Of a stretch of DNA of 64,000 bases, positions 49,809 through 60,435 are shown one piece after another. The stretch comes from Arabidopsis thaliana (Eukaryota; Streptophyta; Magnoliopsida; Brassicales; Brassicaceae): assembly GCF_000001735.4 (NCBI RefSeq), contig NC_003075.7, positions 17,175,001 through 17,239,000 on the forward strand. Direction: 5' to 3'. Numbering within the stretch: position 1 is the stretch's first letter; each line of letters starts with the position of its first letter. The position numbers and the translations under genes were made by a program. The notes under the pieces were generated by a model that did not search any database, was not told where the DNA came from, and saw only the letters and a program-made list of their open reading frames with translations.

Positions 49809-50307
49809 GAGAAGAACCATGAAGCGAAGGCTTAGTGGTGGCTTTATTTGTTTGATTGTATCCAAAATATCTCTGACCAAAATCATCAAAGCCAAGCTTA
49901 TTGTAAAACCAATTTCTTGTGTTTCTTATTATTAAAGAATGGTGAAAAGAAAGAAAGTTTTGTTCTTTCTCTTGTGTATATTATCAAAATACCATGTACA
50001 TCAAATTGCAATTTTCTTTTGTAGTTTCCTACTAGTTTAACTCACAAGTATATAATCAGAAGCGGTGGTTTAGTAATTATCAAATAAACCCATGAGTGAA
50101 AAAAAGGAAACAACGCATAAGAGTTTTTTTAAAAAGGACCGTTACGTTGAACCCTAATCACATGTGGAAAAAGGAAACAACAGAAAAAAGGAAATCCCTA
50201 ACACATCATTAATGTTTATAAAATAGCCTCATCGTTTAAGTATCTTCGATCGATCATCACAAACAAAAACCTAGAGAAACAAGAAATACAGAGAGAGAGG
50301 GCTAATT
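49809..50307. other. Spacer: SFH12 3' region and left edge of the duplication mosaic
   Basis: SFH12 3' UTR to about 50000, then AT-rich DNA with no supported gene. An imperfect repeat, AAAAGGAAACAACxxA, occurs at 50102 and 50169. Confidence 0.55.
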
Positions 50308-50437
50308 GCTGTAACTTGTCTGGATGAACACAAAGTGTAGCTTTCCTGTAAGCTCGCTTCACGGCTGCTGAAGTTATGACTTCTGTTAACGGTAACGGTT
50401 GCCAACCGCTCTCGGAACAGAGGATCTGGTTTACAAA
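50308..50437 (-). pseudogene. Truncated copy of the auxilin-like J-domain exon
   Basis: Nearly identical to 55779-55908 in the auxilin-like gene. On the minus strand it encodes [21 protein letters not shown] and [15 protein letters not shown], including the HPD motif, and keeps the exon's acceptor side. It diverges right after DKLQQ and lacks the flanking exons. A few substitutions (for example GPES to CSES) are visible. It is too short to be functional and is a duplicated fragment. Confidence 0.85.
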
Positions 50438-50460
50438 CAATCAAATGTGAAAGATACTCT

Positions 50461-55588: not shown

Positions 55589-58500
55589 TCAACGTCCTTC
55601 TGAGTTGAATCTGTTCCAAGCTTCCTGGATATTAATTAGAACATTAAGACAATTCCAGATTCTTGAATGAGCAATTCAGAGACTGTGTAAAAAGGTGTAA
55701 CAGAACATGAACCAATACCTTAAGAAGATCGAAGACCTTTTCGCAGATATATTTCTGATGAATGTTTGCACCTCTTTGCTGTAACTTGTCTGGATGAACA
55801 CAAAGTGTAGCTTTCCTGTAAGCTCGCTTCACGGCTGCTGAAGTTATCACTTCTGTTAACGGTAACGGTTGCCAACCGCTCTCGGGACCGAGAATCTGGT
55901 TCACAACAAACAAAGACAAAGAAAAATCGATTTGAGAAATAGCTTTTAACTATCTAACTTTGATCTCTAGCTATGTTGTTCGGTAAGGAAACGTTACATA
56001 TTGTAGTGTTGAGAGTAATGCTCTTATGTTTCCTTCTTTTCCACTCGACCATCTTTTTACTTCGGTGTCTAAGGTTTCAGCAATTCTCTGTGGGAAACAT
56101 AAACAAAAATGTGATTATTGAAAAGAAAGGAAGGCTTTAGTGAAAATATAGGAAGGAGTTCAGTTTGGTGGTTGTACAATTCTCTCTGCTTGTTCTCTCT
56201 GAGCCACGAGATCACGCATGTTCTTCTCTGCTAAAGCTTTAGCCTGTTAAGAATTCAATATGCCCGTTAACTAACATCATCAATGGTGTGGATTTCAAAA
56301 CGAGTATTGAAGCATCAGTTACCACACGATCAGCCGTTCTTTGATGCCTTTCTAATCTTGATGTATACCTTTGAGGCGATTCACCTTCAGTACCTTAAAA
56401 GACAAAAGAAACGAAAATGGGTTAAGCACTTAAGCTAATAGGGGTATGCAAAAATAAAACCACTAGAGAGTTTTCAGAGTATTTTTACCATGAGAATCTT
56501 GATATCTTGAAGCACCAAAAGAGACTGAATTTTGAAATTGCTTATCAGAAAGTGATATTTCCATTCGTTCACCAAAGAAACCTGAACTCTGAGATTGCTT
56601 ATCGGAAACCGATCTTTCCATTCGCTCTCTTGCCTCAAAAGCAGCCTTTTCAGCTGCACGGTCACGAGCTTCAGAGGTTGCTCTCTCCACTGCTGCCCGT
56701 TCTGCTCTAAGTCGAGCCTCCATCGATAACTTATCAGGCAAAGACTTCTCTCTGGCCTCAGCACATGCTTTCTCCAATCTTTCACGTGCATCAGCCAATG
56801 CTCTCTGGTCAAAAGCCATTCGATCCTTCTCCCTCTCTCTTTCCCTCTCCCTTTCTTCTTCTACCTTTCTTAATTGCTCCATCTCTAAGTCTCTTTCTCT
56901 CTTTAGTCTCTCTGCTTCTTTCTCACGTTGCACAGATACTCGAGAAGGCAATGGTCTTTCTACTTTTGCATCTTGATTTAAACCTGCTTGCGTCTCATAG
57001 ATATTTCCTCTTTCCTGCTGATGGGTGAATTTATATTCATGGTTTCTGAAACCATAGGATGTTTTGGGAGCGGACTTACTTTCCTCTGGATTCCTTTGAT
57101 CACGACCAACACCTACAACGTCTTCTAATCTTTCTTCAACTTCAGTTTTCAACCCACTGACTCGTTTGAGAACTGAGGCATCTTTGGAGGTTTCAGAATT
57201 TTTACTCTTCTGTTCGAGCTTCCCTCCTATAATATTCTCAGTGACAGATGTGGATTCCTCACCTGATTCTCCATTTTGTTGGTTACATCCTCCATTCTCA
57301 CCCAGCCGTGGTGTCTCTTCATTCCTCTCAAACAACCTGGTGTCAGCATCCATCTCATTAGTTCCTTCCTTTTGGCTGGCGTCTTTGAGGGTCTTCTCAA
57401 AAACCTTCCAAGGACAGGTTTCTGCGGACATAGATTCTCTCTGCCTTGTCCCTTCTTCTTCTTTCTTTTGTTTGTTCACTGATACGTCGTTGTCTATACT
57501 CTCATTCTCTTCTAGAGTGTCGCTAAGACTTTCATTTGATGATTGCTCTCCATGAGCCTCTTTGGTGGTTTCACAGGTTTTCTCCATTTCACAAGCATCT
57601 CTTTCTTTCTCGTCACTTTCTTCTCCTGAATATTCATGTTGTTTTCTTTCATTTTCCTGATGCTCTTGATTTTCTCTATGTAGTCTTTCTCTTTCCTTGG
57701 CTTCTTGCAGCCTCATCCTCATCTCTTCCTGTTCAAGATCCTCTTTCAGTCTTCTCTCAATCTCTGCCCTCTCAAAAGCTTCTATCAGTCTTTTTTCTTT
57801 CTCTTCTAGCTCAATAGCTTCTCTCAGTTTCTTCTTATTCTCCTCTTTTTCACGTGTCTCTTTCAGCCTTCTTTCGTTCTCCTTTTGCTCGAGGGCTTCT
57901 TTCAACTTCCTCTCATTCTCTGCCTGCTCAAGAACCTCTTTAGCTCTCCTCTCATTTTCTTCTCTCTCTTGTCTTTCTTTAATCTGCCTTTCCTTCTCTT
58001 CTTGTTCAAGAGTTGCTTTCAGTCTTTGCTCCAGCTCTGCCTTCTCACGTGCCTCCTTTATTCTTCGCTCGTTTTCTTCTTTTTCACGTGCTTCTTTTAT
58101 CCTTCGTTCCTTCTCTTGTTCAAGTGCAACTCTCATTTTTTCTTTCATGCTCTGCCTTCTCACAGGCCTCTCTCATTCTACGGTTCTCTTCTTCCTTTTC
58201 AAAAGCTTCTTTTAGCTGCAATTCTAACTCTTGTTGTTCTTTCATTTTCCTTTCTTGTTCTGCCTTTTCACGAGCCTCAACAGCTCTTCGTTCATTCTCT
58301 GCTTTTTCACGAGCTTCCTTAATCTTTCTTTCCTTCTCTTCTTGCTCCAACGCAGCCTTTAGTCTTTTCTCATTTTCTGCCTTCTCAACAGCTACTCTTT
58401 CTCTTCTGTCATTTTCTTCCCTTAGACGAGCCTCTTTAATCCTAGTTTCCTCCTCCATCCTCTTCAAGGGCTCATTCAGTTTAGTCTCACTTTGGCTACG

Positions 58501-60435
58501 CATTTCCATTTTTTTACCATTTCCATTCAATTCAACGGAAACCTCTAGCGTACTTTCATTACCAAGAGCTTCCCTGAGCTTTCTCGCATTTTGTTCCCAA
58601 TCATACACGCATTCCTGGTTCGTTTCAGCTGCTTTCTGATGTGTTTTTTTATCCAACTGTTGATTTTGAATGCGTTTTGTTTTCTCTTCACAGAGCAATT
58701 CCTTCTTTTGTTTCGCAGGCTTTTCAGTAAAGAGCTTGTTTTCTTCTGGTTTGAGCAGATTTCTGTGTTTCACTATCCCACCATGATCAGGTAAATCGTT
58801 GCCCATCTCAACATGTCTCGATTTCTCAATCTTTGGCTCTTCAGGAGCCTTTTCAGCAAGCTTGTTCTCATGTCTCTTATGCCTAGATGATAACTTTCTC
58901 GTTCCAGAGTGTTTTGGCAATTTCCTAGCTTCATGATCCTCCCTATCTCCTTTTGCTCTCCTCCGTTGTTTCTCCCAGTCAACATTGCCTGCCCATGTCA
59001 GCTCCTGATCGAAAAACTCAGCATTAAGAGGAATAGAAACATCTTTTCCACCACTGTTCTCATCAGCATTTCTTGGTAGCTCTGTTCTCACCAATTCAAC
59101 ATATTGATTATTAGCTTCTTTCCATTCATCATTTCCATCAGAGGTTGCTGACCCTTGAGAAGACAGAGACTTGCTTCCACGCTTATCCTTCAAAGACTTT
59201 CTTGCTACATCAATATTACTCTTAACAACTGGCAAACCAGCTGCATAGCTCGATTTCCCTTCCTCTTTTATTCTATTCTTCGTGGAGGATGGCGTTGAGG
59301 TGGTCCGTGCCACATCCCTCTTCCTTTCTAACAGCTCTTTTGCACTTTTTAATTTTGCCTCAGCTTTTAGCATAGCTTCTCTCACAGCAGCTGAATTAGC
59401 ATCAACCTCTACATCAAAGAACGTTGGAGAACTACTACTATCTACAGATCCTTGTGATCCAGTGGTTTTAGAATTAGAAGCCGAACTTCTAAAATCACTC
59501 TTCAATATAGGAGCTGCTCTCGATGGAGGTGGTATTCCAGTAGGATGAGTCTTCAAACCAATCTCAGAAACAGTAACAAAAGGTTCACTACTGTAATACT
59601 TGTCTTCAAAGACAAATCTACTTGTACCTCTACCAACAGAAGATGGCCCAGTCACCTTGTTAAGCTTTGTTGTTCCATCAACTGCGACAGTGTAACCAGG
59701 AATAGCACCAAGATCAGCTACACGTATCACACCACTTGAGGACATATTTGTCTCACCGCCGCTTATCTGACTAGCTTTGTTATAAGAAATGTTGAACTCT
59801 GTACTTCCATCAATGGAATCATATGAGTCTCTACCATTAGAAAAGCAAGGACTTTTGCCAGAATGTTCTGTACCACCTGAGCATGACTCTACTTCCTCAG
59901 GAGTCCTACAAACAAAATAAAGCTCAATTCTTAAAAAAGAAGGCTCTTTTCCACAAATTGAATCATAAAGTTTCGATTTTTATCAGTACCAAGCATCGTC
60001 GGAGGAATCACCATCACCAACCACCGTAGTAGACTTCTGCTGCAAAAACAGTTCTTCATACGACGGAGCTAAATCGAGATCGTTAAACCCTCCGAAGACT
60101 TCACGGTAGTCAAAACCTTGACTCCGAACATCGAAGTAGACATCTCTATCATCAACAAGTGGAAGATCGAGTACCGGAATCGAAGAAACGGCGGCGCGTG
60201 AGGAGCCGTTGAAACCGGAGAAAATCTCGCAATAGTCTTCGAGACGAGGAGATAAAGTCGGAGCTCCGAACCTAGGTGGACCACCAAAAACGTCGTCGTA
60301 TGTAGTAGTGGTGGTTGTATTAGCCGTTTTGCCGGAGTTGTAGCTAAAACCTCCGGTGGTGTTATTGCCATTGTAAGGTTTCTTAGGTAATGAAGAAGAC
60401 CTGTTTGGATTCCGAGAATGAGAGAGATTTTCCAT
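55589..60435 (-). CDS. Large auxilin-like J-domain protein with an apparent frameshift
   Basis: Auxilin-type co-chaperone, expected to recruit Hsc70 for clathrin uncoating. Exons as complement of 55589-55624, 55719-55895, 55998-56087, 56178-56243, 56323-56393, 56489-59905 and 59990-60435; about 1430 aa if read through. Start at MENLSHSRN (60435) because family members begin this way; an upstream in-frame ATG exists. The N-terminal region has a [10 protein letters not shown] motif, then a very long charged coiled coil of REKAENERR-type repeats (about 560-950). The C-terminal J domain carries [18 protein letters not shown] and [11 protein letters not shown]. At the six-T tract 58136-58141 the frame shifts by one: frame A stops at 58120 about 9 codons later, while frame B continues the same coiled coil. 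Corresponds to At4g36520. Confidence 0.88.

Follow-up and report, generated by a model that had tools for sequence, protein, structure and literature searches.

Is one auxilin-like protein without its J domain in the sequenced line of Arabidopsis thaliana, or does the reference sequence miscount a base? The question arises in the window, by which we mean the whole 64,000-nt stretch of DNA analysed here, where an auxilin-like gene begins in one reading frame and reaches its J domain in another. The window spans C4:17175001-17239000 and very probably belongs to the Col-0 reference.

A frame change inside an otherwise undamaged auxilin-like gene

We modelled the gene as seven predicted exons, setting the introns by their GT/AG ends and by agreement with P0001, a protein record from another A. 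thaliana assembly. From its coordinates, we take the gene to be At4g36520, AUXILIN-LIKE4. The listing in PMC9798423 gives AUXILIN-LIKE4 as At4g36520, and the accessible text of that review marks the role of At4g36520 in clathrin uncoating as predicted by similarity. The features of the gene and of the frame change are as follows.

60435..55589, minus strand: auxilin-like gene, from ATG 60435 to stop 55589
59990..60435, minus strand: predicted exon 1, starting with ATG 60435; protein in agreement with P0001
56489..59905, minus strand: predicted exon 2, in which the charged coiled coil lies and the frame changes
56323..56393, minus strand: predicted exon 3
56178..56243, minus strand: predicted exon 4
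55998..56087, minus strand: predicted exon 5
55719..55895, minus strand: predicted exon 6, with the bulk of the J domain, including the HPD motif
55589..55624, minus strand: predicted exon 7, with the end of the J domain and the normal stop
58120..58172, minus strand: overlap of the two open frames (ORFs 58120..59979 and 56463..58172)
58136..58141, minus strand: run of six A (T on the plus strand), the one-base frame switch, placed by ungapped comparison with P0001
58120..58122, minus strand: TGA closing frame A, five codons past ...EHERK

Frame A, which carries the start codon, runs through the coiled coil to ...EKAEHERK and then reads NESCT before the stop; the minus-strand bases at the site are GAG CAT GAA AGA AAA AAT GAG AGT TGC ACT TGA. 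Frame B has no stop between 58172 and 56463, which is beyond the end of exon 2, and it continues across the later predicted exons as far as the stop at 55589. It resumes the same coiled coil directly after the six-A run, and ends in an auxilin-type J domain. Because frames A and B overlap only in 58120-58172, the switch must fall there. A previous reading, made from the sequence alone, had placed the TGA and the six-A run at exactly these positions, and its estimate of about 1430 codons up to the J domain agrees with the 1,433 codons that we count when the frames are joined across the A run. It had set the truncation near residue 737; the last in-frame residue is 738, and the product as written has 743 aa from ATG 60435, including five out-of-frame residues. 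A runs at least as long occur three more times in the coding sequence (two of seven, one of six), none with a frame break, so the length of the run is by itself no explanation for a slip at this one.

The remainder of the gene is undamaged: its six introns are all GT...AG, 79-102 nt long and 34-44% U, the downstream half is open, and the HPD motif is present, encoded in exon 6 as VHPDK, as expected of an auxilin-type J domain. In phmmer searches, the C-terminal 129 residues gave 2.1e-36 with PDB 3ag7 (F9E10.5) and values from 2.6e-17 to 9e-15 with five auxilin sequences, 1xi5 and 1n4c being among the structures matched. Arabidopsis F9E10.5 is presumably JAC1. The Pfam DnaJ model scored P0001 at 17.8 bits, under its cut-off of 27.8. 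Thus, the C-terminus of the window gene is alike in sequence to the J domains of bovine auxilin and F9E10.5 (1n4c, 1xi5, 3ag7); unlike theirs, its J domain sits past a frame break. The J domain is in frame with the start codon in P0001 but not in the window, where that frame ends at 58120.

Relatives read through the junction

Arabidopsis AUXILIN-LIKE4 and its Brassicaceae orthologues resemble the window gene in having a long charged coiled coil followed by a C-terminal auxilin-type J domain; compared with the orthologues, the window copy is one base out of frame halfway along. We searched with the 1,433-aa read-through, which found 248 proteins, of which 120 were listed and P0001-P0026 aligned. 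The homologues are predicted proteins, compared at the protein level. P0001, itself 1,433 aa long, aligned to the read-through ungapped and with only 8 differences (identical at 1,425/1,433), confirming the earlier proposal that the frame switches with the coiled-coil register kept after the A run; this record is the representative, and the one member compared, of a cluster of 33. Residues are present on both sides of the junction in 25 of the 26 aligned homologues (the best 26 of 248). Eight of the 26 retain a close junction pattern, [RK]K|M[RK]VA[LF]EQEKERR; the remaining aligned homologues have substitutions or gain and loss of coiled-coil repeats at the junction, and their register is less sure. 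A further record, the 678-aa Arabis alpina P0127, begins on the upstream side of the junction and likewise has ERKMKVALEQ. Given the ungapped match to P0001 and the 25 of 26 homologues with residues on both sides, we conclude that, as far as protein comparison can tell, the gene is ancestrally a single frame, from which the window departs by one base. The difference would be one surplus A in the window: judged from frame and residues, the relatives would have five A's, and one in-gene repeat copy, which reads GAAAGGAAAATG in frame at a comparable place, fits this count.

The coiled coil near the junction differs among relatives through gain and loss of repeat units. In the window, the gene has tandem repeats at 57721-57846 and 56513-56624, whose repeat periods (39 and 57 nt) are multiples of three.

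The A. suecica record P0012 is open at the site and identical to the read-through at 694 of 695 residues over the downstream half. Y1106 is common to the window and P0012, against P0001 and P0003 (described below), and is the only one of three downstream-half differences between the window and P0001 that looks derived on the window side. A near-identical downstream half, sharing Y1106 and open at the site, therefore exists without the break. Of the first 738 residues, 400 are missing from P0012, and what it has of the upstream half is divergent; with a near-identical downstream half beside it, the record looks as if it were chimeric or recombined.

We also looked for records that stop where frame A stops. 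None among the matches listed for the 743-aa product or for the 695-aa tail ends at TGA 58120-58122, and no A. thaliana record beyond P0003 was among the matches listed (743-aa query, 21 at 1e-50 with lengths 409-1300 eligible; 695-aa tail, 48 at 1e-80). The protein database holds cluster representatives only, and may hide a shortened record.

The one aligned homologue that skips the junction region is P0003, an A. thaliana model of a different assembly with non-Col residues, in which 271 codons of the coiled coil are skipped over the junction. The corresponding stretch in the window is:

57729..58542, minus strand: stretch skipped in P0003, with GT...AG ends; 814 nt in the window

Since 814 nt is a multiple of three plus one, a skip of the P0003 type would restore the window frame too. 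The skip could reflect a frame error in that assembly, a frameshift shared with the window, or real splicing. It counts against a slip confined to the window, because an annotator would hardly need a skip if that assembly were open there.

Neither splicing nor recoding is a likely route to full-length protein

If the six-A sequence is correct, the J domain might still be reached through removal of a short intron. We scanned 58000-58300 for frame-restoring GT/GC...AG stretches between 20 and 250 nt long, and took only the shortest further.

58130..58163, minus strand: 34-nt GT...AG stretch, an improbable intron; splicing it out would give one frame of 1,422 aa

Among the frame-restoring GT/GC...AG stretches of 20 nt or more at the site, none is shorter than this one, whose donor is GTGAGA. 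The resulting 1,422 aa is what we take to be the length of the reference gene model; if so, the match would mean that the annotators used the 34-nt intron. However, splicing of 58163-58130 in Col-0 to give a 1,422-residue protein is, in our view, very unlikely. At 34 nt and 9% U, the stretch is far from the 79-102 nt and 34-44% U of the six introns of the gene, and plant introns are defined by AU-rich sequence, according to the accessible text of PMC2682935. P0001 and seven other close records retain the residues that its removal would delete. Moreover, the scan found 129 frame-restoring stretches, so the existence of any single one means little, and we rejected such introns as an explanation.

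A second route would be a +1 shift of the ribosome, or slippage of the polymerase, within the A run, yielding some full-length protein from a six-A gene. The geometry allows this to a degree, as a tRNA reading AAA could re-pair one base onward inside the run, and +1 is the right direction. Against it, a -1 slip at A AAA AAT runs into a TGA at once, only +1 (or -2) enters frame B, and no stop is located at the slip itself. The 81 nt downstream fold at -5.5 kcal/mol (z -1.22), with 29 of 200 shuffles folding equally well; we saw no notable structure that might stimulate a shift. Above all, the relatives have an open frame and need no recoding, 25 of 26 having residues on both sides. We consider recoding very unlikely too, and set aside programmed events of either kind on the grounds of the read-through relatives, the +1-only geometry and the unremarkable downstream structure. 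The sequence-only reading had offered three explanations (an assembly or sequencing slip, a truncating allele, and a programmed or corrected event), and had named a frame-restoring intron, seen in cDNA, as something that would refute it. Its one-base difference in a normally open gene is upheld by P0001 and the Brassicaceae relatives; its programmed event is not, since those relatives require none; and the one intron candidate followed up is unlike the introns of the gene and would remove residues that eight close records keep.

A slip in the reference or a truncating allele

We reasoned that the frame break is likely to be a base-count slip in the reference sequence, rather than a property of the plant, a reading that we hold with modest confidence. 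According to this reading, an auxilin-like J-domain gene whose single frame is intact in another A. thaliana record would be broken in the window by one base at the six-A run; the plant itself would carry five A's and make the full 1,433-residue protein, which would serve clathrin uncoating with Hsc70, as predicted for the auxilin-like family. We favour a slip because no listed record ends at the stop, because P0012 is open there, and because the base accuracy of Chr4 in TAIR10.1 is the lowest of the five chromosomes, at 99.996611% (QV 44.70), or about one discrepancy per 30 kb (PMC9510872, accessible text). Taken at face value, this rate would put about 0.15 discrepancies, whatever their nature, in a 4.3-kb coding sequence, the published accuracy counting all k-mer discrepancies and not errors alone. 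The single-base break in the window resembles the base-level errors of TAIR10, which are isolated discrepancies at published QV values of 44.70-52.30 (PMC9510872, accessible text). From the literature on reference errors, introns and auxilins, the accessible text of PMC6529160, PMC5053417, PMC11118573, PMC8348815, PMC11096106 and PMC5762160 does not mention the site; the papers found under the locus name At4g36520 do not concern its reading frame.

The priors for a slip and for a true allele are close, and a young true allele would look just like a slip. A plausible, if less probable, alternative is that the sequenced line truly carries a frameshift allele, which gained one A and encodes a protein ending at residue 743 without the J domain. 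The message of such an allele would likely be a target of nonsense-mediated decay, and other auxilin-like genes would cover the loss. Consistent with this, the stop is followed by 1,631 nt of exon 2 and then by five introns, an arrangement that commonly triggers decay. P0003 may signal a second affected assembly. Six other genomic loci match the J-domain region, so the loss may be borne.

C1:28265811, C4:7506931, C4:7516286, C1:7608386, C1:28191247, C1:10662975: six loci at 38-68% identity to the J-domain region

Disruptive alleles are also common among A. thaliana accessions: the accessible text of PMC3521719 gives a mean of 930 genes per accession with disruptive changes relative to the reference, against 27,133 annotated. 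The natural pseudogene alleles described there, at 7,546 loci in 80 accessions, are small changes that disrupt otherwise intact genes, as in the window; they were called against the reference, whereas in the present case it is the reference that deviates. In cucumber, natural frameshift alleles remove the J domain of another auxilin-like gene and accompany upward pedicels (PMC6485165, accessible text). Against a true allele, no A. thaliana record among the matches listed, which are cluster representatives only, ends at the stop; the downstream half has no second lesion, and P0012, with which it shares Y1106, is open.

Either way, whether slip or true allele, we regard the case as an ordinary one. 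If a slip, the preferred reading, is correct, then the reference protein is incorrect midway along the coiled coil, any artificial intron in the gene model should go, and constructs and peptide searches built on the reference protein are affected. It is possible, and we advance it only tentatively, that Col-0 is instead a natural truncation mutant, without the J domain of one of seven auxilin-like proteins, and that other accessions keep that domain. If so, function studies in Col-0 have been done in a mutant background, and the absence from Col-0 of a J domain that other accessions have would be relevant to knock-out studies of plant clathrin uncoating and to redundancy among the seven genes.

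Related sequences elsewhere in the genome

We considered, and rejected, a second intact copy in the genome: in a search of the 119.66-Mb genome (7 contigs) that skipped simple repeats, the 301 nt around the site matched this gene alone, together with its weaker internal coiled-coil repeats. An Rfam search over the window gave no match. Searching the genome with the J-domain region returned 24 matching places, among them the exons of the gene itself and, at C4:17225291, a fragment. Among the six loci at 38-68% identity, two reads cross a stop, and some loci have a second exon in the match list. Nine weaker J-domain matches (35-41%) lie on C1, C2, C3 and C5, for example C2:5971167-5971337. Eight of these nine are in open frames of exactly 93 codons, and look like one repeated family with a J-like piece.

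At 50306-50445 (minus strand), the window also contains a 140-nt partial copy of the auxilin-like gene, 95% identical to it, which runs from the last part of intron 5 into the first part of exon 6 and includes the HPD motif. This copy lies about 5 kb downstream of the auxilin-like gene on the same strand, and looks recent, with 36 residues still encoded. Because it includes intron sequence, it arose by duplication of DNA.
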